From: Onthophagus taurus
Lineage: Eukaryota > Arthropoda > Insecta > Coleoptera > Scarabaeidae
DNA: 64,000 nt
NCBI RefSeq assembly: GCF_036711975.1
Contig: NC_091969.1
Span: 2,294,001-2,358,000, forward strand
Reading direction: 5' to 3'
The notes beneath the pieces were generated by a model, which was not told the DNA's origin, did not search any database, and saw only the letters and a list, made by a program, of their open reading frames with translations. The position numbers and the translations under genes were made by a program. Positions 8,047 through 58,628 of this stretch are shown here, in pieces. Position 1 is the first letter of the stretch, and each line of letters opens with the position of its first letter.

Positions 8047-10292
8047 TGTTTCTAGTTCTAATGTTAGTTCTAGTGACAGTGGTAGGTAGCGCTAGTTAAC
8101 ATGAGATATCACTATGTTGCATATTTTTATTGAAATAAAACTAGAACTCACAGTAGACCTAGAACTAGAATCATCCGGGTTTAGCCGTCTTGAGAGACAT
8201 GCGGCTAAATCCGAATGTTTCTAGTTCTAGGTCTAGTGTTAGCTTTAGTATTGTACTAGCACTATCACTAGAACTAACACAAGACCTAGAACTAGAATCA
8301 TTCGGGTTTAGCCGTCTTGAGAGACGTGCGGCTAAACCCAAATGTTTCTAGTTCTAAGTCTAGTGTTAGTTCTAGCATTACACTATCACTGGAACTAACA
8401 CAAGACATAGAACTAGAATCATTCGGGTTTAGCCGTCTTGAGAGACGTGCGGCTAAACCCGAATGTTTCTAGTTCTAAGTCTAGTGTTAGTTCTAGCATT
8501 TCACTATCACTAGAACTAACACAAGACCTAGAACTAGAATCATTCGGGATTAGTCGTCTTGAGAGACATGCGGCTAAATCCGAATGTTTCTAGTTCTCGG
8601 TCTAGTGTTAGTTCTAGTATTGCACTAGCACTATTACTAGAATTAACACAAGACCAAGAATCATTCGGCTTTAGCCGTCTTGAGAGACGTGCGTCTAAAA
8701 CCCGAATGTTTCTAGTCCTCGGTCTAGTGTTAGTTCTAGCATTCCACTATCACTAGAACTCACACACAAGACCTAGAACTAAAATAATTAGGGTTTAGCC
8801 GTCTTGAGAAACGTGCGGCTAAATCCGAATGTTTCTAGTTTTCGATCTAGTTTTAGTTCTAGTATTGCACTATCACTATCACTAGAACTAACACAAGACC
8901 TGGAGCTAGAATCGTTCGGGTTTAGCAGTCTTGAGAAACGTGCGACTAAACCCGAATGTTTCTAGTTCTAAGTTTAATGTTAGTTCTAGCATTCCACTAT
9001 CACTAAAACTAACAAAAGACCTAGAACTAGAATCATTCGGGTTTAGCCGTCTTGACAGACGTGCGACTAAATCCGAATGTTTCTAGTTCTCGGTCTAGTG
9101 TTAGTTCTAGTATTGCACTAGCACTATCGCTAGAACTAGCACAAGACCTAGAACTAGAATCGTTCGGGTTTAGCCGTCTTGAGAGACGTGCGACTAAACC
9201 AGAATGTTGCTAGTTCTCGGTCTAGTGTTAGTTTTAGTTTTACACTAGTACTGTCACTAGAACTCACACACAAGACCTAGAACTAAAATCATTCGGGTTT
9301 AGCTGTCTTGAGAGACGTGCGGCTAAACCCGATACTTTCTAGTTCTAGGTCTAATGTTAGTTCTAGTTTTACACTATCATTAGAACTAATACAAGACCTA
9401 GAACTAGAATCATTCGGGTTTAGCCGTCTTGAGAGACGTGCGGCTAAATCCGAATGTTTTTAGTTCTGGGTGAAGTGTTAGTTCTAGTATTGCACTAGCA
9501 CTATCACTAGAACTAACACAAGATCTGGAACTAGAATTATTCGGGTTTAGCCGTCTTGAGAGACGTGCGACTAAACCCGAATGTTTCTAGTTCTAAGTCT
9601 AGTGTTAGTTCTAGCATTCCACTATCACTAAAACTAACACAAGACCTATAACTAGAATCATTCGGGCATAGCCGTCTTAAGAGACGAGCGGCTAAATCCG
9701 AATGTTCCTAGTTCTCGGTCTAGTGTTAGTTCTAGTATTGCACTAGCACTATCACTAGAACTAACACAAGATCTGGAACTAGAATTATTCGGGTTTAGCC
9801 GTCTTGAGAGACGTGCGACTAAACCCGAATGTTTCTAGTTCTAAGTCTAGTGTTAGTTCTAGCATTCCACTATCACTAAAACTAACACAAGACCTATAAC
9901 TAGAATCATTCGGGCATAGCCGTCTTAAGAGACGAGCGGCTAAATCCGAATGTTCCTAGTTCTCGGTCTAGTGTTAGTTCTAGTATTGCACTAGCACTAT
10001 CACTAGAACTAACACAAGACCTGGAACTAGAATCATTCGGGTTTAGCCGTCTTGAGAGACGTGCGGCTAAATCCGAATGTTTCTAGTTCTCGGTCTAGTG
10101 TTAGTTCTAGTATTGCACTAGCACTATTACTAGAACTAACACAAGACCTAGAATCATTCGGGTTTAGCCGTCTTGAAAGACGTGCGGCTAAACCCGAATG
10201 TTTCTAGTTCTAGTATTTCACTATCACTAGAACTAACACAAGACCTAGAACTAGAATCATTCGGGTTTAGCCGTCTTGAGAGACGTGCGGCT
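8047..10292. repeat. Tandem satellite, ~18 units of 121-127 bp, each with two nested hairpins
   Basis: The landmark GCCGTCTTGAGAGACGTGCG recurs at 8184, 8311, 8432, 8553, 8674, 8798, 8925, 9046, 9173, 9302, 9423, 9550, 9671, 9798, 9919, 10046, 10168 and 10270. Each unit has one palindrome built on TAGTTCTAGGTCTAGTGTTA and its complement and another around CGGGTTTAGCCGTCT/AGACGTGCGGCTAAACCCG. The right half alternates 127 and 121 bases; 9550-9797 and 9798-10045 are near-identical 248-base dimers, that is, a higher-order repeat. The array lies between two convergent genes. The TAGTTCTAG/ACTAGAACTA motif is shared with the dispersed hairpin elements, so the satellite probably grew from one of them. 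Confidence 0.95.
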
Positions 10293-31425: not shown

Positions 31426-32223
31426 TTACTTGTGATTGCTAGCTGATGCCAACGTGCCATTAGCCAACCTTCTAGGTTCTGGTAGTGTTTCATTGACGGA
31501 TTTATACAGTGGACAATACTTTCTAGTATGAGCATTATAACCATCTGCATAACAATACGGATACTTCAACGCTCTCAAAACCGGACATGAAACTTTACCT
31601 GTGGAATCTTTCAACGAATGACTTTCATAAAATTCTCGCCCCTCTGAATTTCTTCGACAAAACGTACAAGTTCTTGTTGATATGGCTTTTGACCACCCGT
31701 TTACGGTAGAATTGTTTCCATTGAGAAAATTATCCCACTTATGATTATCTTCCTGTTTGGCGATAGGTTGTCTTAAAAATACCTCTTTCATTTTTGTCAC
31801 GTAATAATCCATTGGTTGATTATTGCTAACTATGATCTCTTCTGATGAATATTTAAAAGGAATGTTATAGATGCTGGTGGTCTGGTGACAGAGCGAACAG
31901 GAAAATATATCAGGGTTTTTGTTGTTAATTAACAAATGACAACGTGATGGACATTTATCAGGAATTCCTTTGAAGCTATCAATCTTTTCAGTAGTTTGAT
32001 GATTGGCAGAGAGTGGCTTTGAAGCTGTTACTGAAGCATCAGTTGGAATGTTTGGAGTATTCACTGTATAAAATACGGAAAATGTGTTAGTCATTTCTGT
32101 TTACATGAATACAAAAATAACGTAAAATAAATATAAATTCGATCTAAATAATCATAAAAGTATCTCACCTCCATCCCGTAGATTTTTCTTCAATATGCAG
32201 CCGGTGACATTCCCACCATTTAT
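31426..32223 (-). CDS. nanos: Nanos-like CCHC zinc-finger protein, last two exons
   Basis: The main exon (32063-31426) encodes a 212-residue segment ending in a Nanos domain: CTFCRRNSEGREFYESHSLK with spacing C-x2-C-x12-H-x10-C, then YPYCYADGYNAHTRKYCPLY. Nanos proteins recruit Pumilio and CCR4-NOT to repress mRNAs in germline and early embryo. In the second finger the usual first Cys (CPxC) is Tyr (YPYC), a change explicable by one G-to-A substitution, so zinc binding there may fail. The exon begins after a TTTTATACAG acceptor; a 55-base candidate preceding exon (32223-32169, INGGNVTGCILKKNLRDG) has matching phase and a GTGAGA donor. The initiator exon was not found. It may be a diverged paralogue or a gene starting to decay. 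Confidence 0.8.
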
Positions 32224-36819: not shown

Positions 36820-37169
36820 ATGCTGTCGCCAGACAAACCGGAAACCCGCCCTCAGAAACTTCGAGTTGTTCTCATAAAAGGAAATAAAACCTACCCATAT
36901 TTTCTATAAACTGCAAGAAATTATCAAAGTATTAATTCTGCCTCTTAATGTAAAGAACTACACTTATTATCTTTCTATAAAATATTACTATGAAATTTTA
37001 ATAGTTATATTTAATTTTAATATCTGCGATGAATAAATGTGAGTAGTATAATAATGAGAGTTCTGGAGCGGAAGTTGCTCCCTGTGCTCCCTGCTCCCTG
37101 CGCATGCGCAGGAAGTGACGTCACAGCGCGGGAAATTTGGCGGGAAATTTGAAATTCAAAATTCATGTG

Positions 37170-37510
37170 GCGCCATCTGGTGGTGTGTAGTTAAACTAAA
37201 AAAGGTTGGTTTACCTGATGAGAGATAGGTGGCGCAGCTTAAAATTTACCTGATGATTGATAGATGGCGCAGCTTAAAATTTACCTGATGAACGATAGAT
37301 GGCGCTGTCATCTTTTTAAGTTGGGCCGGAAATTACTAACCATCGGGCTAGATAGATGGCTCTGTTATATTTTTAAAATTTAAATTTACCTGATGGGTGA
37401 TAGGTGGCGCTGTTATATTTTTAAAATTTAAATTCACCTGATGGGTGATAGATGGCTCTGTTATATTTTTAAAATTTAAATTCACCTGATGGGAGGGATA
37501 GATGGCGTGC
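37170..37510. promoter_or_regulatory. CTCF-like motif array in left terminal region
   Basis: 37170-37183 (GCGCCATCTGGTGG) fits the 14-base CTCF core GCGCCMYCTRGTGG at every position. It is followed by seven spaced units of the form CTGATGNNNGATAGRTGGC, about 37-56 bases apart (37213 to 37510); four contain AGRTGGCGC. The mirrored array is at 49692-50039, with its consensus match at 50026-50039. An insulator role or transposase binding are both possible; neither is shown. Confidence 0.55.
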
Positions 37511-37679
37511 GAAAATTTAAAATCATGGAAAAAAAATTTGGTTGGTAGAAAAATATAAACAAGAATTATATGTTAATACATTTATTATTTAATTTTTAAA
37601 ACAAATTTTATGATTCAATTATGGTTTATGAAATTTATATACATACAGATGAACATCAGGGTCATCGGTAGGAAATTTT

Positions 37680-37989
37680 TTACGTTTCAGGTTTCTTGAT
37701 GAAATCCAATAAATATACTGGGTGAGTTTTACCGATGTCTTTTGCACCCTTATAAATTATGCACATTTTCCTGAGTTCGATGATTTCCTCGTCAGCAATA
37801 CCTTCAGCGGTGCGTCTTGGTAAATAAATTATGAATCCAGCCTCCAACTCAAGTAAGTACCACGGACGGCCAAGAACACGTTTTAAGACGTTTCACGCAC
37901 TTAATTGGATATGGAGTGTCCGGTTGAAGCTCAGAAATTGACTTTTTCGGTAGGAAATTATACTGACCCAATTGACTTAGACGAGACAT
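37680..37989 (-). pseudogene. Small Polinton ORF with shared frameshift, left copy
   Basis: Starts MSRLSQLGQYNFLPKKSISE, passes DTPYPIKCVKRLK, and after one surplus A in an A-run continues GRPWYLLELEAGFIIYLPRR, EEIIELRKMCIIYKG and ends IKKPET. The total of 310 bases would be about 102 codons if in frame. The pattern (short strands, LPRR, YKG) resembles small OB-fold-like proteins found with viral-type polymerases in insects; that is an inference. The same frameshift is in the right copy, so it predates the palindrome. Confidence 0.55.
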
Positions 37990-38328
37990 GGTTCGTTCCT
38001 TGAACAACTGTTTCGTAGATTAATAATAATAAAACGTAACTTGTTAGCTTACAAATAGCTGCCAAACTGAATAAATTATTAGGAACATGTAATTATATGC
38101 TTGAAACAAGATTAATGACGAGACATGGTGGTTCGCTCTTTGAACAATTATTTCGTGGGTTAATAATAAGCGTAACCTATTTGCTTGCACATAGCTGCTA
38201 AACTGAATAAATTATAAAGAACATGTAATTATATGCTTGAAAAAAAGATTACGGGGAGTGGGGAAATGGGCAATAGAAGTTTCTAGAAGGATGATGTAAT
38301 TCACACGTCCAATTGCAAAGAAAAAAAT

Positions 38329-38420
38329 TAGAAATAACAGGTGTTATTGTTCTATAAAATGAAAATTCAGCAGTTTTTATTAGCATTAAATTACCACGGT
38401 TAAGTAAAGTCCGATGCATC
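38329..38420 (-). promoter_or_regulatory. Polinton gene-junction element, copy 1
   Basis: AAATAACAGGTGTTATTGTT, CAGCAGTTTTTATTAGCATT and ACCACGGTTAAGTAAAGTCC follow one another. It lies between the possible membrane ORF (stop 38623) and the small ORF (start 37989). The mirror copy is at 48789-48880. Confidence 0.6.
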
Positions 38421-38622
38421 ACGTCGCCAGGGGTGTCAAGTTACACCTGTCTCAATTAAAAACCTTAATGTTATGATACTTTTTTACAAATTCAATTATA
38501 TTGACAGTTGAATAAAAATAACAAAAATTATGCACGTGAAAAATACATTTAAGTAAAAGAAGGAAAAGGTTTCGGTGGCTCAGTGGTAATATAAATTAAC
38601 GAACTATATAATACAGACTTAT

Positions 38623-38805
38623 TTAATTGAATTTTGCGCGACTTGAACTGATAGCTGCAAGGTGAAATATAAGTACTTTAAAGGCAATAAACCACTGAAT
38701 CACTAAATTGAAAGTCAACAACAACAAAGCAACGAAGATGTAGGAAAGGGTTGAATTGTTAAAAAGAGGAAACTCATCTCGTTTCCTGACGACGATGTGT
38801 AACAT
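38623..38805 (-). CDS. Possible small membrane protein, left copy
   Basis: Sixty codons, MLHIVVRKRDEFPLFNNS followed by a strongly hydrophobic stretch (TLSYIFVALLLLTFNLVIQW and FIAFKVLIFHLAA) and a basic end. It would form one or two membrane helices. It is identical in the right arm (48404-48586). No family is recognised; being intact in both arms is weak evidence because the arms are near-identical anyway. Confidence 0.35.
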   Translation of the reverse strand: MLHIVVRKRDEFPLFNNSTLSYIFVALLLLTFNLVIQWFIAFKVLIFHLAAISSSRAKFN

Positions 38806-38934
38806 GAAAAACTTTTAAAAATGTAGAATTGTTAATAAAAAACATAATAAAACAAAATTTTTATATTGTATAAACCAATTATATAACAATATTGTTCTTT
38901 TTCATTTTTCCATTTTCACGTTGGTTTGCAATTT

Positions 38935-39096
38935 ATGCGAGATATTTTATCTAAGGAACCTTTCATTTCATACAAATTGAAAGTATTGGATAATTTACAT
39001 TTTAGTGATTACATTGATTTTATTATGAACCACCGAAATCTTTTCAATTTAATATTAAAAGATGAAGAAATATATAAAACTTACTTATTTAATTGA
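38935..39096 (+). CDS. Possible 53-residue ORF, left copy
   Basis: ATG at 38935 to TGA at 39094, reading MRDILSKEPFISYKLKVLDN, then FIMNHRNLFNLILKDEEIY. Charged, helix-like composition looks coding. It runs opposite to the polymerase gene. The mirror copy is at 48113-48274 on the minus strand. No family recognised. Confidence 0.35.
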   Translation: MRDILSKEPFISYKLKVLDNLHFSDYIDFIMNHRNLFNLILKDEEIYKTYLFN

Positions 39097-39371
39097 ATTT
39101 AAGCGGATTGAATTGAAGGTGAAATACAAACAACAGAATGATGTGTTTAAGAAATACATTTATTATTATTATTTAATTTTTAAATATACATAACTTTTAT
39201 TATACAATTACATTTTAAAAAATATATATCCATACAGATGAACATCAGGGTCATCGGTCGGAAATTTTTTACGTTTCATAAGTAAAACATAAATTTTATA
39301 AAACAATTAATATACATAAGTATGAACAATAGGGTATCAGATTACATATCAGATTTCTTGAAAAAAAATTT

Positions 39372-39465
39372 CTAGAAATAACAGGTGTTATTGCTACATA
39401 AAATGCGAATTAAGCAGTTTTTATTATTAAATTACCGAAGTTAAGTAAAGTTCATTGCACCTCAC
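39372..39465 (-). promoter_or_regulatory. Polinton gene-junction element, copy 2
   Basis: TAGAAATAACAGGTGTTATT, AATTAAGCAGTTTTTATTAT and ACCGAAGTTAAGTAAAGTTC. It lies 220 bases beyond the polymerase stop codon. Mirror at 47744-47837. The core AATAACAGGTGTTATT is itself a palindrome. Confidence 0.65.
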
Positions 39466-39688
39466 CAACACTTGTTTCAATTTGTTTAAATTAAAATAAA
39501 TACATTTTTTTAAATAAGTTTTTATAACATTACATTTATTTAATATACTTAATCTATATGAAATCAAATAATCTAAATTTTAAAAATATTATGAACCTCC
39601 GTAACATACTAATTACAAAAGGTATTAAAATTGTACAATAAAACTATCAAACTTAATAATTATATACTTAAAATTATAGTAACATTAC

Positions 39689-42094
39689 TTAACACGTTAT
39701 ACTATAATGACCCCAAGCTAGTGTATTAATTCCATTATCACAAATATATCGCTTGGAGTCATTTGGTGAAAGAACCAATTTATTTTGTAATACAGTAAAT
39801 ATACTGTGATTAAAACTTCTAAATAATGTTTGTTTTTTAAATAAAACCGATTTGGAATTTAGACAATCTAAATAATTTTGAAAAGAGATGTGATGTTTAA
39901 CAACAGCCTTCTTAACGCCTTTGGATTTTTTGGTAATCCGCCCATCAGCAACCCTATTAGCATATACCTTTGATCTCAAACCAACAAATTCGACCATTAT
40001 ATTTCCACAATTCTCATCTTTCATTTTACCTAAAACCGCTTTATTCTGCAAGGGTATGTCAAACCGATTATCGGGACTGTAGTTAGATGTGTCAAATTTA
40101 TTTAAATTTAATTTCACATCTCTATATATATCATCAGAATTAATTAATACAGTGAAACTATCGGTGTCCATATAGCACAACCGAACGTCCTCGCCATATT
40201 TAGGTTTTAAGAAATCATAATAAAAATCATACATTAATAATTTTGAAAGTTCTAAAACAGTAAAACCAACGTATAGAGGTTTATCGTAAACGACATGAAG
40301 ACGATCCATTTGAATTGCCGAAAACGTTTCTGTGAATACTTTAATACTTTTAAAATTTAATTTTGCTATTAAACTCCGAGCTCCTAAACGAGGTCTACCT
40401 GCGGCTTTACCAGTATGCACATCATCCCAACTGGTCACTAATCTTACATCGACTCGCTTATCGACGTTTTCCATTGTCTTGCCGAATACAGAATTATTCA
40501 TCAATTTAAAAAAATCTTTTTCAAACGCATTCTTTGCGGATTGACGTAATTCCGTATTTTTATCGATGTAAGATTTCAACCACGCAGACTGTCTGAACGA
40601 TAAAACTCTATTAATTTTGCAAACTTTAAGACCGTGAGCAACAGCTTGTTTCAAATTTCTATAATGGATCACATAATTTTTCTTATCAAATAAATTTGGA
40701 ATTAATCTCCTTTCACTTTCAGATCGATTAATGGGGGCAATTAAATTCTCAGCTAAAAACGGGAGATCGTTGTGTAAATCATGCAAAGCTGCAGGGTATT
40801 CAATATCTACGTCTAAAATATATCCAAAATCGGAATTATCGGGTATATTATTAAAATCTAATTTTTGTATGTCATTTTCACTCAGCCATTTAAAATTGGA
40901 AACGGGCATAAATTGAGACATCGCCCACCCATACAAATTATTAGCGTCCCAATACATTAAAAAGTTTGACGGTAAATTGAGGTTATAATCATCCATATAT
41001 TTATTATTGGCTTTAGCGGACCGTAGGGAGCATTGGGAAATGCCTCCACGGATACCTTTCTTAATAAAATGGACTTGATCTATATCCGTTAATAATTCTA
41101 ATTTAATTTTGGTAAATTTCAACATTGCATCCCAAGAAAGTCCTGGGGCAGTATAATAATGAGCGGGATCTAAATCGTAGGTTTTGAAGCAAACTTGTCT
41201 GAATTTTTCAAATACATCAGCAAGTAAAAGGACATCAGTTTTTAGATACAAATCCGAATAATCTTTTAAATTTAGACAATTAAATTTTTCCCACACAGTT
41301 TGAGCATGGGAATACTGCTCATCGGTTATATCTTCAAATGATAGTTTGTTGAAAAAAGCGTTTTTAGGTGGCAATGAAGTTACGTTTAATTTATCGAGTG
41401 AATCCATATAACCGTAGGGGAATATTCCCTTCTTGCTCAATAATCTAAACTGATCATTGTGTGGAAAGAATTTACGTATATTTATTAAATCAAATTCGTC
41501 AAGGTTACCAGCTAAAGAATCTAATGATGAGGCCATAAACCTAAATGAATCTACAAATCTTAGTTTAAAAAAAGTATTTTCAACGCGGTCCCCCTCCACT
41601 TGAGCTTTATCGACTAATATCCGTTTACTGAAACTGATGTATTTTTCTTTATTATTAGGTAATACATCAAGCCCATCTTCATCCGCATCAGCCATTTCTT
41701 TAATAAATAAATGACAATCGTAACCACTAAAATTATGAAAAAATATTGGAATAAAATTTTGAAGTTGAAAATTTAAATTACAATTTGTATGAGCGGGCCC
41801 ACGGTACCTACCGCTTATGTGACAATGATCGCGAACCTTAACCTGATCTGAAGTGAAAGGATTTTGGCAAATAAAACAATTTTCAGCTGAATCGAAATTC
41901 CGTTGCTCATCGACCGTTAAAGGTAGCATTGGTTTTACGGATTTAAAGTATTTATTGTAAATAAATTTGACATCATCAATTAATTTAGAGATAAAAACTT
42001 GAGGTGCATCAGGTCCCGCATACGTTTCAAACTTATTGGAGTTGGAATCAATGGTGGAAACGATATAGTACGCGAAACTATACGGTTGATGCAT
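39689..42094 (-). pseudogene. Protein-primed family B DNA polymerase, left copy (5' deleted)
   Basis: An open frame of 801 codons from MHQPYSFAYYIV to the terminal AWGHYSITC. It keeps an HNH/endonuclease VII-like insertion (CFICQNPF ... RDHCHISGRYRG), Exo II (NFSGYDCHLF), Exo III (YLKTDVLLLADVF), the family B motifs DANNLYGW, MNNSVFGKTMEN and YMDTDSF. Exo I is lost because 1.07 kb present in the right copy (about 44023-45100) is missing here. The deletion junction has short filler (see findings). The residue before MNNSVFG is Leu, where the right copy has Ser. Confidence 0.9.
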
Positions 42095-42109
42095 CTCAAT
42101 TTTTTTCCC

Positions 42110-42628
42110 CTATTTTACCCTATTTTTATAGCATGACATCATTTTTGCAACATTCTTATCGATTAATTCGGCATGCTGTGTTTGAAGATGAGTTTCGAGT
42201 GACGTAAGTGACGGTAAAAACTCACCGCAAACCTCGCATGCCTTACCTTTGTTCTTGGTAATTGAATGTGGTAGTGGTGTTGAGCCTCGACGGCGTTTAG
42301 TGGATGGTGGTGATGATGATGATGATGATGATGATGAAGAACCTCCCATCTCTAAATTCGATTGAGTTTCAATAGTTGATTGTGGCGGTGGTGCTTGAGT
42401 TGATGGTGGCGGTGATGTTTGAGTTGATGGTGGTGGCGGTGCTTGACGTTTGGATGTAATTGGTAATCCATGAAATAATCTTTGATGTTCATCCAATTTA
42501 TCTCGCCTCGATAAACATTTTCCACACATCGAACAATCAAATTTGGATTGACCATGTTTACTTCGTACATGTCTGTCAAGATTACGTTTTAATGTAAAAG
42601 ATGCTTGACAACGCTGGCAAATAAACAT
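42110..42628 (-). pseudogene. Polymerase N-terminal zinc-finger region, left copy
   Basis: Likely start ATG at 42626-42628, reading MFICQRCQASFTLKRNLDRH then a second finger CSMCGKCLSRRDKLDEHQRL, a proline-rich linker (PPPPSTQTSPPP type), a serine run encoded by a TCA repeat, and a third finger CEVCGEFLPSLTSLETHL. The frame ends at TAA just after CYKNRVK, at the deletion junction. C2H2 fingers ahead of a Polinton polymerase suggest DNA or origin binding. The original gene is therefore preserved only in two unlinked halves; they are not joined in this DNA. Confidence 0.8.
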
Positions 42629-42936
42629 TTTAGAGTTTGTAAATTTCGGAAATATCAAAACACTTGGTATAAAAGTTTTAGATAAAATAGGTGAAACTAC
42701 TACGATGTTATCGCAACCGCGAACGAATGGTATTTGCGTTCCAGTACGTGATGAGCATACTCTAATACTCAAATTACATAAATTAGTTTTGCTCGATCAA
42801 GGTCAAGTAAAGTCGAAGGTTTCGGTATGTGACAGTATACTTCAGATGCACTGTCCAACCGTTACCGACTAATGCCGAAACACTCCGATCGGAGTAATCG
42901 GCAGTTTAACCTGTTAATATTCAAATTACATAAATT

Positions 42937-43009
42937 ATTATTGTTACATAAAACGCAAATTAAGCGGTTTTTATTAAATCACTAAGGTTAAGTAAAGTTC
43001 AATGCACTG
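42937..43009 (-). promoter_or_regulatory. Polinton gene-junction element, central copy
   Basis: TTATTATTGTTACATAAAAC, AAATTAAGCGGTTTTTATTA and ACTAAGGTTAAGTAAAGTTC. It lies between the central truncated gene (stop 43290) and the polymerase start (42628). It lacks the ACAGGTGT palindrome. Confidence 0.6.
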
Positions 43010-43289
43010 TGGCAATCAGCACTGTGATTATTTGCGAACGTCCCCGCACCCCGGAGTAAAGGACCCCCCCCCCATAAAAAATAAGGCAACACTACGGTTG
43101 CGGTTAAAAAACGTTACAGCATCAGTGATCAGTCGGGAGAGATAAGGATTAAAATAAAAAATTAAAGATGTTTCGAGATTATTTATTTTTTAAAAACCAT
43201 AAATTACATAAATTTAATAAGAAGCATTTATTATTATTACAGTTCAAATATTTTAATTAGCATGTAAGTGTGGTAGAGGAGTGTTATAG

Positions 43290-43777
43290 TTAACTGTTAA
43301 ACAACAACAAATTATTAACCCTACGCTTTATCGATTTACGTATCCGCAACAGAATTTCTGGAGATTCTTTAAAATAATCTGCAGATGAATGTGTTTGTAT
43401 ATATTTCTTATACCATGTCTTCATCTGTAGTTGTTGTTCATCGATAGGACTAACATCAAATTCTTCATAGGTGAAGTCGGTTTCATGAACACCACAATAA
43501 TTATTCATTACTTTACATGTAGGATCATAACATTCATTTTCCACTTTTACCCAGAAATGCATTATGGGTATGCGTAGCTCCTTATGTATCATGTAACCAA
43601 ACAACATTTCCGGCTGATACCCCAATTTTCTTGCTTCATCACAAAACATTAAGGATGTTGGTAGACAGGCTCCAAAATAATGTTGCCTTATCAATTCTTG
43701 GGAAATTATATTGCTTAATAAAGAGAGTTTAATACGATCTGCACCTGTTAACACCATGATGAGATGCGTCAATGTCC
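43290..43777 (-). pseudogene. Cysteine-peptidase/transglutaminase-like gene, 5' truncated
   Basis: About 160 codons survive, ending at TAA at 43290. The core reads YFGACLPTSLMFCDEARKLG, then IPIMHFWVKVENECYDPT. The ordered Cys (GACLPTS), His (MHFWVKV) and Asp (CYDPT) spacing matches papain/transglutaminase-like folds such as TGase-type peptidases; this is a fold guess. Polintons normally carry an adenovirus-type cysteine protease, but the motifs here look different. The 5' part is cut at 43777, where the inverted right arm begins, so the frame reads on into antisense polymerase sequence. It is the only gene unique to the centre. Confidence 0.5.
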
Positions 43778-46700
43778 ATTTAGAGATGGGAGGTTCTTCA
43801 TCATCATCATCATCATCATCATCACCACCATCCACTAAACGCCGTCGAGGCTCAACACCACTACCACATTCAATTACCAAGAACAAAGGTAAGGCATGCG
43901 AGGTTTGCGGTGAGTTTTTACCGTCACTTACGTCACTCGAAACTCATCTTCAAACACAGCATGCCGAATTAATCGATAAGAATGTTGCAAAAATGATGTC
44001 ATGCTATAAAAATAGGGTAGTTTCCTATAAAATTAGTGGAGCTCAATCTGACGATGATATACCGTCATATCTATTGAAATGTCGTGAAACAGTTAATAAA
44101 CTGATTGAACAACATCTCAATGAGAATGGTTCGATAAAAGCTCAGATTGAGTTATTAGCTAATTTTATTAAGTCCGGGTTTGATGATGATGGTAATGAGG
44201 AAGTCATAACGTCAGAGAAAAATTTTAATATCAAATTTAAAATTGTCACTTCATCTACTATGTTAAATGAGGTTTATGATGAGATGACTCGCGATATTTT
44301 AACTCAAAGCGAGGAGTTTCAGGAGCGTGGGTCTGGGTGGGCTTTCCACTCAATATCTTACCTCCTGTTAAACCTCAACAAATTTGAACCTATTCCCGGG
44401 TCATCATATATTCATTTACCTCATGAAATCGTTAATAAAAAGGCGTGCATCAATATTAAAAACTATGAAGATGATGCATGTCTAGCGTGGTGTTTGACGG
44501 CAACTCTTCATCCCGCGAAATATAGTCAAGACCGGACTGCGAGCTACCCTCATTATAGCCAAGTGCTTAATTTACAAGGGATTACATTCCCCATTAGTGT
44601 AAAAGATATTGTTAAAGTGGAAAAATTAAATAATTTAAGTATTAATGTTTATGAATTAGTTAAGGAATCAAAAAGTTATTCGGTGGAAGGACCAATTTAT
44701 TTTACCAAACAAAGACGTGATATTCATATAAATTTACTTTATTTATATGAATCCGGGAAAGGTCATTTCGTTTTAATTAAAAATCTTTCGAGGCTAATAT
44801 CAAACCAGTGTGTGAACCGTAACGGCTCTATACACCTTTGTGATGGCTGTTTAACACGATTTTCATCAGCTGAACATTTAACTGCGCATCAGATTAACGA
44901 TTGTAATCATACAAAGACAGTTGTACCCTCCACAAATTTAAAATCAAAACCAAATTATTTCGGCTTATATACCCCTCAGAACATTTTAGAGTTTAACAAC
45001 TATAAATTCACTCAGATGGCCCCTTTTGTCATATACGCTGACTTTGAATCGATTTTAAAACCGATCGATCATTGTGAACCACATTCCTCCAAGTCTTTCA
45101 CGGAAAAAATTGAGATGCATCAACCGTATAGTTTCGCGTACTATATCGTTTCCACCATTGATTCCAACTCCAATAAGTTTGAAACGTATGCGGGACCTGA
45201 TGCACCTCAAGTTTTTATCTCTAAATTAATTGATGATGTCAAATTTATTTACAATAAATACTTTAAATCCGTAAAACCAATGCTACCTTTAACGGTCGAT
45301 GAGCAACGGAATTTCGATTCAGCTGAAAATTGTTTTATTTGCCAAAATCCTTTCACTTCAGATCAGGTTAAGGTTCGCGATCATTGTCACATAAGCGGTA
45401 GGTACCGTGGGCCCGCTCATACAAATTGTAATTTAAATTTTCAACTTCAAAATTTTATTCCAATATTTTTTCATAATTTTAGTGGTTACGATTGTCATTT
45501 ATTTATTAAAGAAATGGCTGATGCGGATGAAGATGGGCTTGATGTATTACCTAATAATAAAGAAAAATACATCAGTTTCAGTAAACGGATATTAGTCGAT
45601 AAAGCTCAAGTGGAGGGGGACCGCGTTGAAAATACTTTTTTTAAACTAAGATTTGTAGATTCATTTAGGTTTATGGCCTCATCATTAGATTCTTTAGCTG
45701 GTAACCTTGACGAATTTGATTTAATAAATATACGTAAATTCTTTCCACACAATGATCAGTTTAGATTATTGAGCAAGAAGGGAATATTCCCCTACGGTTA
45801 TATGGATTCACTCGATAAATTAAACGTAACTTCATTGCCACCTAAAAACGCTTTTTTCAACAAACTATCATTTGAAGATATAACCGATGAGCAGTATTCC
45901 CATGCTCAAACTGTGTGGGAAAAATTTAATTGTCTAAATTTAAAAGATTATTCGGATTTGTATCTAAAAACTGATGTCCTTTTACTTGCTGATGTATTTG
46001 AAAAATTCAGACAAGTTTGCTTCAAAACCTACGATTTAGATCCCGCTCATTATTATACTGCCCCAGGACTTTCTTGGGATGCAATGTTGAAATTTACCAA
46101 AATTAAATTAGAATTATTAACGGATATAGATCAAGTCCATTTTATTAAGAAAGGTATCCGTGGAGGCATTTCCCAATGCTCCCTACGGTCCGCTAAAGCC
46201 AATAATAAATATATGGATGATTATAACCTCAATTTACCGTCAAACTTTTTAATGTATTGGGACGCTAATAATTTGTATGGGTGGGCGATGTCTCAATTTA
46301 TGCCCGTTTCCAATTTTAAATGGCTGAGTGAAAATGACATACAAAAATTAGATTTTAATAATATACCCGATAATTCCGATTTTGGATATATTTTAGACGT
46401 AGATATTGAATACCCTGCAGCTTTGCATGATTTACACAACGATCTCCCGTTTTTAGCTGAGAATTTAATTGCCCCCATTAATCGATCTGAAAGTGAAAGG
46501 AGATTAATTCCAAATTTATTTGATAAGAAAAATTATGTGATCCATTATAGAAATTTGAAACAAGCTGTTGCTCACGGTCTTAAAGTTTGCAAAATTAATA
46601 GAGTTTTATCGTTCAGACAGTCTGCGTGGTTGAAATCTTACATCGATAAAAATACGGAATTACGTCAATCCGCAAAGAATGCGTTTGAAAAAGATTTTTT

Positions 46701-47520
46701 TAAATCGATGAATAATTCTGTATTCGGCAAGACAATGGAAAACGTCGATAAGCGAGTCGATGTAAGATTAGTGACCAGTTGGGATGATGTGCATACTGGT
46801 AAAGCCGCAGGTAGACCTCGTTTAGGAGCTCGGAGTTTAATAGCAAAATTAAATTTTAAAAGTATTAAAGTATTCACAGAAACGTTTTCGGCAATTCAAA
46901 TGGATCGTCTTCATGTCGTTTACGATAAACCTCTATACGTTGGTTTTACTGTTTTAGAACTTTCAAAATTATTAATGTATGATTTTTATTATGATTTCTT
47001 AAAACCTAAATATGGCGAGGACGTTCGGTTGTGCTATATGGACACCGATAGTTTCACTGTATTAATTAATTCTGATGATATATATAGAGATGTGAAATTA
47101 AATTTAAATAAATTTGACACATCTAACTACAGTCCCGATAATCGGTTTGACATACCCTTGCAGAATAAAGCGGTTTTAGGTAAAATGAAAGATGAGAATT
47201 GTGGAAATATAATGGTCGAATTTGTTGGTTTGAGATCAAAGGTATATGCTAATAGGGTTGCTGATGGGCGGATTACCAAAAAATCCAAAGGCGTTAAGAA
47301 GGCTGTTGTTAAACATCACATCTCTTTTCAAAATTATTTAGATTGTCTAAATTCCAAATCGGTTTTATTTAAAAAACAAACATTATTTAGAAGTTTTAAT
47401 CACAGTATATTTACTGTATTACAAAATAAATTGGTTCTTTCACCAAATGACTCCAAGCGATATATTTGTGATAATGGAATTAATACACTAGCTTGGGGTC
47501 ATTATAGTATAACGTGTTAA
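43778..47520 (+). CDS. Protein-primed family B DNA polymerase, right copy (N-terminus replaced)
   Basis: An open frame runs from 43711 to 47520, but sequence before 43778 is antisense to the central gene, so the first ~22 codons are not original. From EMGGSSSS it carries one C2H2 finger (CEVCGEFLPSL), a cysteine/OTU-like stretch around YEDDACLAWCLTATLHP, another finger (CDGCLTRFSSAEHLTAHQ), Exo I (YADFESIL, residue ~441), the HNH-like insertion (~540), Exo II (~589), Exo III (~750), and polymerase motifs DANNLYGW (~848), MNNSVFGKTMEN (~1000) and YMDTDSF (~1109). The two N-terminal fingers of the left copy are missing. Ser replaces Leu just before MNNSVFG in motif B. Otherwise it is intact, and identical to the left copy almost everywhere. 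Confidence 0.9.
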
Positions 47521-47743
47521 GTAATGTTACTATAATTTTAAGTATATAATTATTAAGTTTGATAGTTTTATTGTACAATTTTAATACCTTTTGTAATTAG
47601 TATGTTACGGAGGTTCATAATATTTTTAATATTTAGATTATTTGATTTCATATAGATTAAGTATATTAAATAAATGTAATGTTATAAAAACTTATTTAAA
47701 AAAATGTATTTATTTTAATTTAAACAAATTGAAACAAGTGTTG

Positions 47744-47837
47744 GTGAGGTGCAATGAACTTTACTTAACTTCGGTAATTTAATAATAAAAACTGCTTAAT
47801 TCGCATTTTATGTAGCAATAACACCTGTTATTTCTAG
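47744..47837 (+). promoter_or_regulatory. Polinton gene-junction element, right-arm mirror of copy 2
   Basis: Inverted copy of 39372-39465, lying 220 bases after the right polymerase stop. Confidence 0.6.
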
Positions 47838-48112
47838 AAATTTTTTTTCAAGAAATCTGATATGTAATCTGATACCCTATTGTTCATACTTATGTATATT
47901 AATTGTTTTATAAAATTTATGTTTTACTTATGAAACGTAAAAAATTTCCGACCGATGACCCTGATGTTCATCTGTATGGATATATATTTTTTAAAATGTA
48001 ATTGTATAATAAAAGTTATGTATATTTAAAAATTAAATAATAATAATAAATGTATTTCTTAAACACATCATTCTGTTGTTTGTATTTCACCTTCAATTCA
48101 ATCCGCTTAAAT

Positions 48113-48274
48113 TCAATTAAATAAGTAAGTTTTATATATTTCTTCATCTTTTAATATTAAATTGAAAAGATTTCGGTGGTTCATAATAAAATCAATGTAA
48201 TCACTAAAATGTAAATTATCCAATACTTTCAATTTGTATGAAATGAAAGGTTCCTTAGATAAAATATCTCGCAT
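48113..48274 (-). CDS. Possible 53-residue ORF, right copy
   Basis: Mirror of 38935-39096 with the same reading frame; antisense to the polymerase. Function unknown. Confidence 0.3.
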   Translation of the reverse strand: MRDILSKEPFISYKLKVLDNLHFSDYIDFIMNHRNLFNLILKDEEIYKTYLFN

Positions 48275-48403
48275 AAATTGCAAACCAACGTGAAAATGGA
48301 AAAATGAAAAAGAACAATATTGTTATATAATTGGTTTATACAATATAAAAATTTTGTTTTATTATGTTTTTTATTAACAATTCTACATTTTTAAAAGTTT
48401 TTC

Positions 48404-48586
48404 ATGTTACACATCGTCGTCAGGAAACGAGATGAGTTTCCTCTTTTTAACAATTCAACCCTTTCCTACATCTTCGTTGCTTTGTTGTTGTTGACTTTCA
48501 ATTTAGTGATTCAGTGGTTTATTGCCTTTAAAGTACTTATATTTCACCTTGCAGCTATCAGTTCAAGTCGCGCAAAATTCAATTAA
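48404..48586 (+). CDS. Possible small membrane protein, right copy
   Basis: Identical in sequence to the left copy at 38623-38805: a 60-residue peptide with a long hydrophobic stretch. Confidence 0.35.
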   Translation: MLHIVVRKRDEFPLFNNSTLSYIFVALLLLTFNLVIQWFIAFKVLIFHLAAISSSRAKFN

Positions 48587-48788
48587 ATAAGTCTGTATTA
48601 TATAGTTCGTTAATTTATATTACCACTGAGCCACCGAAACCTTTTCCTTCTTTTACTTAAATGTATTTTTCACGTGCATAATTTTTGTTATTTTTATTCA
48701 ACTGTCAATATAATTGAATTTGTAAAAAAGTATCATAACATTAAGGTTTTTAATTGAGACAGGTGTAACTTGACACCCCTGGCGACGT

Positions 48789-48880
48789 GATGCATCGGAC
48801 TTTACTTAACCGTGGTAATTTAATGCTAATAAAAACTGCTGAATTTTCATTTTATAGAACAATAACACCTGTTATTTCTA
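48789..48880 (+). promoter_or_regulatory. Polinton gene-junction element, right-arm mirror of copy 1
   Basis: Inverted copy of 38329-38420, about 340 bases upstream of the small ORF at 49220. Confidence 0.6.
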
Positions 48881-49219
48881 ATTTTTTTCTTTGCAATTGG
48901 ACGTGTGAATTACATCATCCTTCTAGAAACTTCTATTGCCCATTTCCCCACTCCCCGTAATCTTTTTTTCAAGCATATAATTACATGTTCTTTATAATTT
49001 ATTCAGTTTAGCAGCTATGTGCAAGCAAATAGGTTACGCTTATTATTAACCCACGAAATAATTGTTCAAAGAGCGAACCACCATGTCTCGTCATTAATCT
49101 TGTTTCAAGCATATAATTACATGTTCCTAATAATTTATTCAGTTTGGCAGCTATTTGTAAGCTAACAAGTTACGTTTTATTATTATTAATCTACGAAACA
49201 GTTGTTCAAGGAACGAACC

Positions 49220-49529
49220 ATGTCTCGTCTAAGTCAATTGGGTCAGTATAATTTCCTACCGAAAAAGTCAATTTCTGAGCTTCAACCGGACACTCCATAT
49301 CCAATTAAGTGCGTGAAACGTCTTAAAACGTGTTCTTGGCCGTCCGTGGTACTTACTTGAGTTGGAGGCTGGATTCATAATTTATTTACCAAGACGCACC
49401 GCTGAAGGTATTGCTGACGAGGAAATCATCGAACTCAGGAAAATGTGCATAATTTATAAGGGTGCAAAAGACATCGGTAAAACTCACCCAGTATATTTAT
49501 TGGATTTCATCAAGAAACCTGAAACGTAA
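49220..49529 (+). pseudogene. Small Polinton ORF with shared frameshift, right copy
   Basis: Mirror of 37680-37989. It carries the same surplus A after VKRLK, so both copies descend from one already broken gene. About 130 bases upstream is a tandem duplicate of its leader that also contains ATGTCTCGTC (49083). Confidence 0.55.
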
Positions 49530-49691
49530 AAAATTTCCTACCGATGACCCTGATGTTCATCTGTATGTATATAAATTTCATAAACCATAATTGAATCATA
49601 AAATTTGTTTTAAAAATTAAATAATAAATGTATTAACATATAATTCTTGTTTATATTTTTCTACCAACCAAATTTTTTTTCCATGATTTTA

Positions 49692-50039
49692 AATTTTCGC
49701 ACGCCATCTATCCCTCCCATCAGGTGAATTTAAATTTTAAAAATATAACAGAGCCATCTATCACCCATCAGGTGAATTTAAATTTTAAAAATATAACAGC
49801 GCCACCTATCACCCATCAGGTAAATTTAAATTTTAAAAATATAACAGAGCCATCTATCTAGCCCGATGGTTAGTAATTTCCGGCCCAACTTAAAAAGATG
49901 ACAGCGCCATCTATCGTTCATCAGGTAAATTTTAAGCTGCGCCATCTATCAATCATCAGGTAAATTTTAAGCTGCGCCACCTATCTCTCATCAGGTAAAC
50001 CAACCTTTTTTAGTTTAACTACACACCACCAGATGGCGC
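49692..50039. promoter_or_regulatory. CTCF-like motif array in right terminal region
   Basis: Mirror of 37170-37510. CCACCAGATGGCGC at 50026-50039 matches the CTCF core consensus CCACYAGRKGGCGC throughout; GCGCCACCTATC and GCGCCATCTATC recur inward. Confidence 0.55.
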
Positions 50040-50423
50040 CACATGAATTTTGAATTTCAAATTTCCCACCAAATTTCCCGCGCTGTGACGTCACTTCCTG
50101 CGCATGCGCAGGGAGCACAGGGAGCAACTTCCGCTCCAGAACTCTCATTATTATACTACTAATGTGTTTATTCAAAATTGTAATAAATTGTTGACATTGA
50201 TTTGTTGACATTTGTTGCATTGTTTATTCTTACTTTTACTTTCGTTTTAAACTAGGAGGATTGAATACAAAACTTAGATTTAGAATAAGAAATATCATTA
50301 AAAAATATCACTGGATATTTTTGGCGGTAAATTTAAATTCACGTTATTATTACATAAAACGAAATGTTCTACTTATTATTAACATTTATTTAGCATTTCG
50401 TCTATTTTAAACATACAAGTTAG

Positions 50424-54687: not shown

Positions 54688-57600
54688 TTAAATATACAAA
54701 TTTAACTTGCTTCTAAATATTTCAAATTTGATTCGCCCCAATGGCTTTGTAAATATATCAGCCGTATTGTTGTCGGTCTTAACATATTTTACATTCATTA
54801 GGTTTTTACTTACAATATCTTTGATATAATGTAACTTAATATCTATGTGTCTAGATCTTTTGCTATTCATATAATTCTTAATCATAGAAATTGCACTCTG
54901 ATTATCCACAAACATAACTGGGATCTCACATTCATTTTTTTTAATTCTGTCAATACACTTTGTAGATACATTAGGTCACAGGTTGCGCTGGCACAAGCTA
55001 TATACTCAGCTTCTGCTGTTGAAAGTGCTACGACGTTTTGTTTTCTGGTAGACCATAGAATCAGATTTTGACCGTGATATATGGCTGATCCACTTACACT
55101 TTTCCTATCCACTTTGTTGTTTCCCCAATCTGCGTCTGTGTATGCAATCAGGTTTTGTATATTGCTCTTTCTGTATACTAATTTTACTTCTTTCGTATGT
55201 TGCAGGTATCTAAGAATTCGCTTTCCTGCATTCCAAACTTGCGTGGTGGGTTTATTTATAAACTGACTTAAATAAGATGTGGCAAATGTAATATCCGGTC
55301 TACTCACTGTTGATAGATATAGTAGTGATCCAATTAGTTCTCTGAATGGTGCTTTTATACATTCACTCTTTTCGTCAATATAGAAGTTTTGTTCCATTGG
55401 AGTAAATTGGCCTTTACATTCACTCATGTTGAACTTTTGCAGTATTTTAGTAATGAAACATTCTTGGTCTATAGAAAGTTCATTTTTACCTTTGATGATG
55501 TTCATACCAAGAAAGTTTTTGAATTCTCCTAAATCTTTAGCATTGAACTCAACCTTCAGCGATTCAATTAAATTTTGAACTTTTGGTTCTTCTCCAGTTA
55601 TTATAATATCATCAACCCAAATGATGAGTCTTACTTCTGTACTGGTATACAAGCAAAAGTCGCTGTTTGATCTTTGTAATCCGTTTTTCTCGACAAAGTT
55701 GTGGAATCTTTCGTTCCATTTCCTTGGTGCTAATTTTAGACCATATAAACTCTTTATTAACTTCAGAACTTTTCCAGGCTGATTGTTAACACCTTGTGGC
55801 GTTTTTATGTATACATCGTTGTCCAGATATCCGTTTAAAAAGGCAGTAGGTATATCTAATTGTTTGATTACCCATTCATGTTGTATGGCATAGGATAGCA
55901 GCAGTCGGATTGTTGGAATACGTGCCACTGGACTATAAACTTCCCCGTAGTAATCCTCTTGGAATCCTTTGACGACCAGTCTTGCCTTTTTGGTTCCATC
56001 ATTTTTCGTCTTGAAGATCCATCTGGTGTCGATGGCCCTTTCACCTTCAGGCAATTCAGCTGTTGTCCAAGTACCATGATGTTGTAATGCCTCTACCTCT
56101 CGTTGTATAGCTGTTCGCCACTCATCTCCCTTTCGAATGGCTTCTTCATACGTTTCTGGATCCCCTGTATAGTAGCAATAAGCGGTGTACAACTCATAGT
56201 CTTTGAATTTTGTTGGGATTTTAACTTCCCTTTTATGTAATTTGTGCAATACATTACCAGAATTTGATCCCTCGTCATCACTAGGATCTCCATCGTTTCT
56301 TTCTTCGGCTTGACAATAGTTTCTTTCTTCGGTCTGATCATTGTTTCTTTCTTCTTCCATTCCATCATCTTCGCCTTGTTGATTTTCCTCGTCTTCACAA
56401 TTTGTATACGGTTTTCTTCGCTCTTCTTTCCCACTTTCTGTGTAGATGTAGTCACCTTCATCAAACTGTACGTCTCTTGATACTATTATGGAATTAGTTT
56501 GTTTGTTCCACAGCCTGTAGCCTTGCTTTCCATACCCAACCATTCTACATTCTACAGCTCTGGTTTCCAGTTTGTCACTAGGTACCGGTAACTTACATGC
56601 CCATGCCCTACTTCCAAATATTTTTAGGCGATTCAAGTTTATTTTTCCATGATAAAGTTTGGCTGGTATGTTTCCTTGAATGCTTTTACTTGGGCATCTA
56701 TTCAATTGATATGCCGCACACTGTATGGCCTCACCCCATAAACTTTTTGGTAGGTTTGTCTCGGCTAGCAACGTCCTTACTCTACTCATTAGAGTGAAAT
56801 TCATCCTTTCACTAACACCATTTTGTTGTTGTGTGTATGGTAGAGTGTATTGTAAATCGATTCCTTTTTGCTTGCAAAAATTTGTAAGTGCATGAGATCT
56901 AAATTCTCCTCCACAATCTGATCTAATTCTACTACACTTATAACCTTCCGAATTTATTCGCCTAATGTGGTTCATAAGATTATCGGCTGCTTCACTTTTG
57001 TTTTTTAGTAAATATACAGTTACAAAATGTGTGTAATCATCAATTATAGTTTGAAAGTATCTTTCCTCATTTATTGTTTGAGTTTTTATGGGGCCTGCGA
57101 TGTCTGTATGTAAAAACTCACCTTTTCTTGTCGATCGTGGCGTATCAACTTCTTTAAATGGAGTTCTTTTCGCCTTTCCTTCCTTGCATGCTCCACAGTT
57201 GTTTTCATTGTCTTTTAAACCCATAGATTTCAAGTCTTTACCATTTAAATGTCCCAAACGTTTGTGCCATAAATCTTTAATTTTTGCAATATTGCAACTT
57301 TGCATGCTTTCGCATATTTCAAAGTGAGCTTTGTAAATATTATGGGCTGCATCAAACTTCACCATACGTCTTCCCTTGTGCTTAATTATGGCTGTGTTTG
57401 TACCAAATATTATAACCTTTCCTTTTTCTGTTATTTTCCTTACGGATAGTAAATTCTCAAAAAGTTTCTTTACAATTAACGCTTGGATTGTAATGGTAAT
57501 ATTTTCTGTTTTCACCCTTAGTTTTCCTGTCTTTTCAGCTATCAATTTTTCTCCATTTGCTATATTTATTTTTACGTAATTTGGTAATTTTTGAACATCA

Positions 57601-58535
57601 AACATCCATTTCTCAACTTCTTCTTTAACCAAATGGTCTGAGGCTCCACTGTCTAATATAAACTTAATGTTTTCTATGCTTGTTGTCCCAAAAGCATTTT
57701 CCACTTCGTTTGTGGTTGCGATAAAAGACAATTCTTCACCTTTATCTTCATAGTTCTCCCTTGGTGCGCAATGGGCCTTTTTGTTGTGATATCTTCCTGT
57801 ACCTCTTCGATTACCCCTTTGGTATCTTCCCCTTCCTCTATTGTTTGTAATCTTTGGGCAATTCCTTTTAAAATGTCCTTCTTCTCCACATTCAAAACAT
57901 GTGATTTGTACTTGTGGTTTGTACGATGCAAAAGAATGATTATCATTATCACTTGGACAATTTTCCCTCATTTTAAGTTCAGCATCTAATAATCTATTCT
58001 TTACAAACTCATACGTTAATCCAGAGGACATAGTTTCGAGAGTTGTAATTACTATATCATATTTTTCGGGCATTGTTAATAGTAGGAAACATACCTTGTC
58101 ACTGTCCTCTAGCTTCATGTTTAACGACTCTAGCTCTCTCAATAAAGTTTCAACTCTCACTAAATGGTCCTGTAGCTCTCCGTCAGTAAATTTTGTCTTC
58201 AATAATTTCTTCATAACAAACAATTTCGTTAATGGACTTTTTCTTTCGAAGATATCTTTCAAACATTTCCACATTTCGAACGTGTACTTTGCATCTTTCA
58301 GATTTTCCAAATGTTTGTCGTCTACACATTGTACTATGATACATTTTGCCTTAGAATTCTTTTTAATGAAAGCTGTCAATTTCTCTTGATTCATTTCATC
58401 GATTTTCTCTTTATCCATTTCTAAAGTATCTTTAACACCTTCCTTTTCAAGCAGTATTTCCATTCTAAATTTCCAATGTGAAAAGTTTGTCCCGTCTACT
58501 AACTGAGGAAGCGGAATTGGTGACGACGACGCCAT
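54688..58535 (-). CDS. copia Gag-Pol polyprotein with a single frameshift
   Basis: ATG at 58533-58535 opens MASSSPIPLPQLVDGTNFSH. Order: Gag (UBN2-like), zinc knuckle CFECGEEGHFKRNC, protease FILDSGASDHLV, pre-integrase LWHKRLGHLN, integrase core (FLHTDIAGPI, IDDYTHFVTVYL, YTQQQNGVSERM), reverse transcriptase with WVDDIIITGE in place of YVDD, and RNase H (YTDADWGNNK, STAEAEYIA). About 1217 codons are open to 54882; the conserved end FVDNQSAISMIKN and KPLGRIKFE lies in another frame (to 54688). The switch falls in a run of eight A near 54935; nine would restore the frame. It could be a real mutation or a sequencing slip. Otherwise it looks intact, as expected for a young copy. Confidence 0.92.
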
Positions 58536-58628
58536 TTTGTTCTTTTTTCTTTACACAGGTATTTTTTTTTTCTTTAGAAAAGTCACACTCACTCGTTTAC
58601 AACCTTTCCAGCTTTTAAATTTGTGTTT

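Follow-up and report, generated by a model that had tools for sequence, protein, structure and literature searches.

Palindromic Polintons of Onthophagus taurus and their probable origin as copy-back products of replication

How a virus-like transposon can come to consist of two inverted copies of one of its own ends, and whether it enters the chromosome in that form, is the question raised by a Polinton of the beetle Onthophagus taurus. The element spans 13,119 base pairs (bp), positions 37042-50160, of a 64,000-nucleotide stretch of contig NC_091969.1 (assembly GCF_036711975.1) which we call the window (C4:2294001-2358000). Features of this window element are given in window coordinates and its relatives carry short contig names (Table 1). 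We propose, with a probability of about two in three, that the element is a panhandle (copy-back) product of protein-primed replication that was integrated like an ordinary Polinton, using enzymes supplied in trans.

The window element and its insertion site

The element begins with AGTAGT and ends with ACTACT, corresponding to the (AGT)2//(ACT)2 termini of a Polinton, and the 6-bp target-site duplication AATGTG stands on both sides of the whole palindrome, as the original prediction from the DNA letters had stated. That prediction described a 13-kilobase (kb) palindromic Polinton and proposed a base-by-base alignment of the arms. The alignment confirmed the inverted arms, which differ by three substitutions (left-arm positions 37141, 39579 and 40503), by one 7-bp insertion or deletion inside a short tandem repeat around 37085, and by 1,074 bp that are deleted from the left arm relative to the right. 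A near-perfect inverted repeat of 5 kb is far beyond chance. The description needs amending in that a 1,420-bp loop separates the arms, the arms are unequal in length and the long polymerase frame is open in the right arm only, the left one being broken into 806 + 228 amino acids (aa).

Each arm contains one polymerase gene reading outwards, and the motifs DANNLYG, NNSVFG and DTDS occur in both arms. The best named homologues of the frame come from O. taurus, and some of them carry PF03175 or are named as a DNA-directed DNA polymerase. By these homologues and motifs, the frame is identified as a B-family DNA polymerase, presumably of the protein-primed kind expected of a Polinton. A PDB search with the frame gave nothing at E 1, and PHROGs gave just weak endonuclease VII matches. 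The same genome end is present at both termini and the distal genes are lost, for none of the six products of the relative C1:22.14M (integrase part, ATPase, PLA2-like, protease-like, a product that we take to be penton-like, and capsid) was matched in the element at E 1e-4.

The insertion can also be compared with empty sites, a check that the original prediction had named for an orthologous site and that was run here on paralogous copies. Using both 200-bp flanks joined over one AATGTG as the query, at least 18 full-length empty paralogues were found on C4 among the 40 of 553 candidates that were scored, all in one orientation and mostly 25-42 kb apart. Twelve of the 18 had the top score; 15 were printed as 100% and three had 97-98% identity. 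The joined flanks also match two places on C8 at 79%. With the occupied copy, the site exists at least 19 times, which we take for a tandem array on comparison of the joined flanks rather than of whole units. Near this site, at 31426-32100, lies a frame of 224 aa that encodes a nanos RNA-binding domain.

Palindromic and non-palindromic relatives

Seven of the 22 end-paired elements examined, the window element included, are palindromes, and they have six different central junctions. The palindromes have AGTAGT/ACTACT termini, and all seven are flanked by a perfect 6-bp duplication, each with its own hexamer. Polymerase sequence is present in both arms of five, and the remaining two have an 89-bp polymerase fragment. 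The 22 pairs come from two end-sequence searches limited to paired ends, with 40 of 135 and 40 of 294 candidates scored (three of seven and three of 14 pairs palindromic, respectively), and from a separate search that gave C11:10.37M. The window element and C8:13.83M were search queries, and 12 pairs taken afterwards served as a blind sample. Two of these 12 are palindromic, a count from probing 3 kb inside the ends (601 vs 1,801 bp for ten pairs, 301 vs 1,001 bp for two) that could miss palindromes with short or unequal arms. No direct match was obtained in the probe of C8:13.41M, which was spotted by polymerase sequence on both sides, and C8:14.82M, with a 114-bp inverted match at the sample edge, was classed as non-palindromic. 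The 15 non-palindromic elements are ten of the 12 blind pairs together with C1:22.14M, C6:27.46M, C6:27.86M, C8:19.3M and C2:29.0M, these five being compared over their retrieved length.

Two of the palindromes, C11:11.12M and C8:14.20M, bear most directly on movement. They align without gaps over 2,563 bp at 99.6%, across both arm-loop junctions of C11:11.12M, and over 1,499 bp their loops differ three times. Their 1.5-kb flanks have nothing in common at E 1e-3 and their target duplications differ (GACGAC vs GAACCC). The common junction and loop within unlike flanks indicate that one palindrome moved as a unit. The original prediction suspected transposing panhandle Polintons, a class of which it knew no description; by this comparison they do exist in this genome, where at least one palindrome occupies two unrelated sites. 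The pair could also have become alike through conversion of one older insertion by another, a course that needs more steps. Integration as a palindrome, which the original prediction claimed for the window element, is supported in the pair; for the window element itself, whether the fold came before or after insertion is an order of events that we infer.

The arms of this pair were also homogenised. Across the four arms, 20 of 6,601 ungapped positions are variable; at eight of these the two elements differ from each other in both arms, and at the remaining 12 a single arm departs from the rest. Given one common palindrome, the eight differences found in both arms indicate that changes were later copied between arms. 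Beyond the common left arm, C8:14.20M has 177 bp mirrored from its right half, followed by 325 bp of the arm over again, and this arrangement records a further arm-to-arm event in one member of the pair. The polymerase frames are 1,361 aa in both arms of C8:14.20M, and each frame is split in two in C11:11.12M. The terminal repeats of two non-palindromic elements, C1:22.14M and C6:27.46M, behave alike at three of six variable sites, and the palindrome therefore looks like an extreme terminal repeat. The whole case for homogenisation comes from the C11:11.12M and C8:14.20M pair.

How the palindromes relate to normal gene order can be seen in two other elements. The left half of C15:5.03M is collinear with C1:22.14M, their identity being 69% across the polymerase gene and 91-98% over the stretch leading from integrase to ATPase; beyond this stretch it turns into an inverted polymerase gene with no clear microhomology at the turn (polymerase frames of 1,390 aa on the left and 836 aa on the right). 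In C8:13.41M, the fold-back point lies beyond the integrase gene and has 2 bp of microhomology. Judged from gene order, both are one-end fold-backs, the shape expected of template switching. The replacement of one half of the element by an inverted polymerase half, which the original prediction had proposed for the window element, is thus seen directly in these two. The window element, whose loop holds a segment of unclear origin, R1, may or may not have folded back from such an order. The three junctions that were judged (the window element, C15:5.03M and C8:13.41M) show 0-2 bp of microhomology.

The original prediction had proposed a search for other copies with the window junction and different target duplications. 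The junction 43777|43778 was found in no other copy: with 40 of 179 candidates scored, only the window's own sequence among 94 matches crosses the junction, and one other overlaps it by 1 base. A common palindromic ancestor for the window element and the C11:11.12M and C8:14.20M pair was considered on the grounds that R1 is common to them and that 188 sites set both window arms apart from all four arms of the pair. It was dropped, as the junctions differ and the window arms are nearer to C8:19.3M (0.75-1.5% over three internal pieces) than to the pair (1.7-6.2%). The window element may be an independent fold-back. The likeness of R1 between the window element and the pair could come from descent or from recombination.

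Normal gene order is found in C1:22.14M and C6:27.46M, which have one polymerase gene each, with broken frames, and terminal repeats of 2,004 bp at 99.85-100% identity. C1:22.14M has genes for integrase, ATPase, PLA2-like and protease-like proteins and a double-jelly-roll capsid. Integrase, ATPase, PLA2-like, protease-like and capsid frames are also present in C6:27.86M (C6:27856153-27867890), where a search for a polymerase frame came up empty; with products that share 30-69% identity with those of C1:22.14M, it is a possible partner supplying enzymes in trans. C2:29.0M is a 9-kb non-palindromic element with a single copy of a stretch that is present twice in C8:13.83M and C11:10.37M. C8:19.3M (C8:19317994-19329711) is a short mosaic in which the window's closest polymerase arm is joined to stretches of the C8:13.83M family, and the hexamers flanking it are unlike (AATTGA and CATTGC).

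Empty sites were also found for the moved pair, with three full-length copies at 93-94% for C11:11.12M and 12 at 96-100% for C8:14.20M; in copies below 100%, those of the window site included, the match is one of the aligned flanks and not of the individual letters of the hexamer. C8:13.83M lies in another copy of the repeat that hosts C8:14.20M, its joined flanks matching the left flank of the latter at 99.0% over 402 columns, which gives it one full-length empty paralogue as well. A second large repeat array spans C8:13538356-14220667, and two different palindromic Polintons occupy two of its copies at repeat positions some 100 bp from each other. At C11:11124147-11139241, the GACGAC target seems, from the flanks, to fall within the FDD codons of a putative reverse transcriptase frame, and there are three uninterrupted copies.

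Table 1. Features of the window element (window coordinates) and its six palindromic relatives (contig coordinates)
Feature	Position	Strand	Description
Left target-site duplication	37036..37041		AATGTG; empty paralogues known
Left arm	37042..42357	+	5,316 bp; first letters AGTAGT
Outermost 247 bp	37042..37288	+	99.6% identity to both ends of C6:27.86M
Left polymerase frame, C-terminal part	39689..42109	-	806 aa; B-family motifs DANNLYG, NNSVFG, DTDS
Left-arm remnant	42106..42115		10 bp opposite 1,084 bp of the right arm; 3 further mismatches there
Left polymerase frame, N-terminal C2H2 zinc-finger part	42110..42796	-	228 aa
Loop	42358..43777		1,420 bp, non-palindromic; upstream part of left polymerase gene and segment R1
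Segment R1	43074..43777		Also in loops of C11:11.12M and C8:14.20M, 95-96%
Frame of unassigned function	43290..43943	-	217 aa; mostly inside R1
Right polymerase frame	43681..47520	+	1,279 aa; first residues loop-derived; N-terminal zinc fingers of left copy missing
Right arm	43778..50160	-	6,383 bp; inverted copy of left arm; last letters ACTACT
Polymerase-gene stretch retained solely by right arm	44020..45103	+	
Right target-site duplication	50161..50166		AATGTG; empty paralogues known
C11:11.12M	C11:11124153-11139235		Arms 6.6 kb, 99.88%; loop 1,862 bp; GACGAC
C8:14.20M	C8:14204888-14220461		Arms 6.8 kb, 99.90%; loop 2,010 bp; GAACCC
C8:13.83M	C8:13822477-13838522		Arms 7.5 kb, 99.9%; loop 1,042 bp; GAATGT
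C11:10.37M	C11:10368854-10383178		Arms 6.7 kb, 2 mismatches, 51 gap positions; loop 852 bp; AATAGC
C15:5.03M	C15:5033506-5047851		Arms 4.65 kb, 99.85%; loop 5,049 bp; TCAGTG
C8:13.41M	C8:13412306-13424760		Arms 5.1 + 5.9 kb, broken by deletions and other changes; loop 1,426 bp; CTCTGG

Origin of the palindromes

In the copy-back reading, a linear Polinton genome would be copied by protein-primed strand displacement, and the polymerase would leave its template and turn onto the complementary strand. The resulting molecule would have the polymerase-side end at both termini, the version in the window being without the integrase, ATPase and capsid genes, and would retain two good ends for replication and integration. 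A Polinton integrase acting in trans could then join the palindrome to the chromosome and generate the 6-bp duplication. The likeness of the arms might be maintained by arm-arm pairing in replication or by conversion once the element is in place. We infer, and do not observe, that the element replicated outside the chromosome, that a template switch produced the palindrome and that enzymes were supplied in trans.

The same product could be reached by repair in place, which we consider unlikely overall, though a real possibility for the window element. Here a normal Polinton would have inserted and a break would have deleted its capsid half; the broken end of the right terminal repeat would then have invaded the left one, copying inwards through the polymerase gene before the gap was closed by end joining, with the duplications left intact. 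The original prediction had argued that an inversion arising after insertion would cost one target copy, an argument that fails, since repair that copies one end from the other retains both. Terminal repeats of 1.6-2.0 kb (99.4-100% identity) in four non-palindromic relatives could prime such an event, which could also produce the mirrored 177 bp of C8:14.20M, and it would suit a window element whose junction is private and whose closest arms belong to a non-palindromic element. It is opposed by the one palindrome of C11:11.12M and C8:14.20M at two sites with different duplications. Repair should also copy the capsid side equally often, and none of the seven palindromes shows this, in a search biased to the polymerase side. 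Much less probable is an assembly artefact joining reads or copies head to head, even with long near-perfect inverted repeats being hard to assemble and a 400-bp insertion site present at least 19 times on the contig. In seven of seven cases the palindromes stop precisely at Polinton termini, between matching 6-bp duplications with a different hexamer each time, which a false join would not produce, and the window arms differ by their substitutions, 7-bp change and 1,074-bp deletion, between flanks that are unlike on the two sides. Least probable of all, and close to negligible, is the insertion of two Polintons tail to tail followed by deletion or inversion of the inner parts. This genome does have many Polinton ends and polymerase genes to draw on, but two insertions predict unlike outer duplications, where the outer hexamers match in all seven, and the joined flanks are uninterrupted elsewhere at the three sites searched. 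An assembly join and a tail-to-tail insertion were rejected on the matching outer duplications, the arm differences and the empty sites.

Several observations nevertheless weigh against the copy-back origin. The window junction is private and the window arms are nearer to the non-palindromic C8:19.3M, so that the case for movement concerns the C11:11.12M and C8:14.20M pair and not the window palindrome. Repair in place yields the same product with both duplications intact. The polymerase-side bias among the palindromes is partly one of ascertainment, since several searches used polymerase-side DNA. A Pfam search of the window polymerase frame gave weak endonuclease VII and zinc-finger matches only, and no PF03175. 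No tblastn match at E 1e-4 to the 292-aa integrase part of C1:22.14M was found in the window element, while the same query was matched in C6:27.86M, C8:13.41M and C15:5.03M; the window element is thus a non-autonomous derivative and not a complete Polinton. Finally, the arms are known from the assembly, and the extrachromosomal form is postulated from it.

A bolder extension of the copy-back origin can be offered only tentatively. Panhandle Polintons could make up a lasting class of satellites that depend on helpers to replicate. They would multiply and spread as free linear palindromes, in which the single strands fold and one arm serves as template for the other, while complete Polintons provide the enzymes that carry or integrate them. 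If true, the chromosomal copies would preserve traces of protein-primed replication outside the chromosomes of an animal, and silencing of the family by small RNAs could also draw on long hairpin transcripts from them.

Relation to known systems and neighbouring features

AGT-type termini, a 6-bp target duplication and a B-family polymerase gene are common to the window element and Polinton/Maverick elements, and the missing matches to integrase, ATPase and capsid genes set it apart from a full Polinton. The accessible part of a survey of Mavericks gives (AGT)2//(ACT)2 termini and 6-bp duplications as standard, terminal repeats of 46-1,447 bp (mean 402) in 134 intact vertebrate elements, and particles as not observed to date (PMC8097293). 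Against the 46-1,447 bp of the vertebrate repeats covered there, the palindromes described here have inverted arms of 4.6-7.5 kb, which in five elements run into or past the polymerase gene. A parallel to the proposed mechanism is phage phi29, also protein-primed, for which the accessible part of one report describes subgenomic DNA containing mainly one genome end and attributes it to template switching by the polymerase (PMC4974454). The likeness lies in a protein-primed linear replicon of which mainly one end is kept. The phi29 molecules, 1-8 kb long, arise in infected bacteria as by-products of replication (PMC4974454), whereas the elements studied here are chromosomal insertions with target duplications.

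Recurrent copy-back palindromes with clean insertions are the expected residue of protein-primed strand-displacement copying. They suggest that a virus-like transposon can shed its whole capsid side, retain a doubled polymerase end and still move. O. taurus is therefore a species in which to seek free linear palindromes. We know of no direct demonstration of protein-primed replication in Mavericks. The left-end palindromic defective genomes of adenoviruses and the palindromic derivatives of yeast linear plasmids also carry one end of a linear, protein-primed genome duplicated in inverted orientation; for these, to our knowledge, integration with target duplication is not known. In Foldback transposons, too, a single long inverted repeat makes up most of the insertion, without Polinton termini or a polymerase gene. 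No palindromic Polinton was found in the published literature as covered by titles and the starts of abstracts, with subscription journals mostly beyond reach.

Segment R1 of the loop also occurs at many other genomic places, mostly in shortened form. Its 217-aa frame and the C11 version of that frame had no Pfam match, the window version had no PHROG match and the C11 version had no homologue at E 0.001. An Rfam scan of the window at gathering scores was likewise negative. Elsewhere in the window, positions 8140-10292 are an array of a 121-bp unit, the unit itself being an imperfect inverted repeat, and at 54882-58550 lies a long open copia-type retrotransposon frame, 1,222 aa in length, in which gag, integrase and reverse transcriptase domains are recognised.

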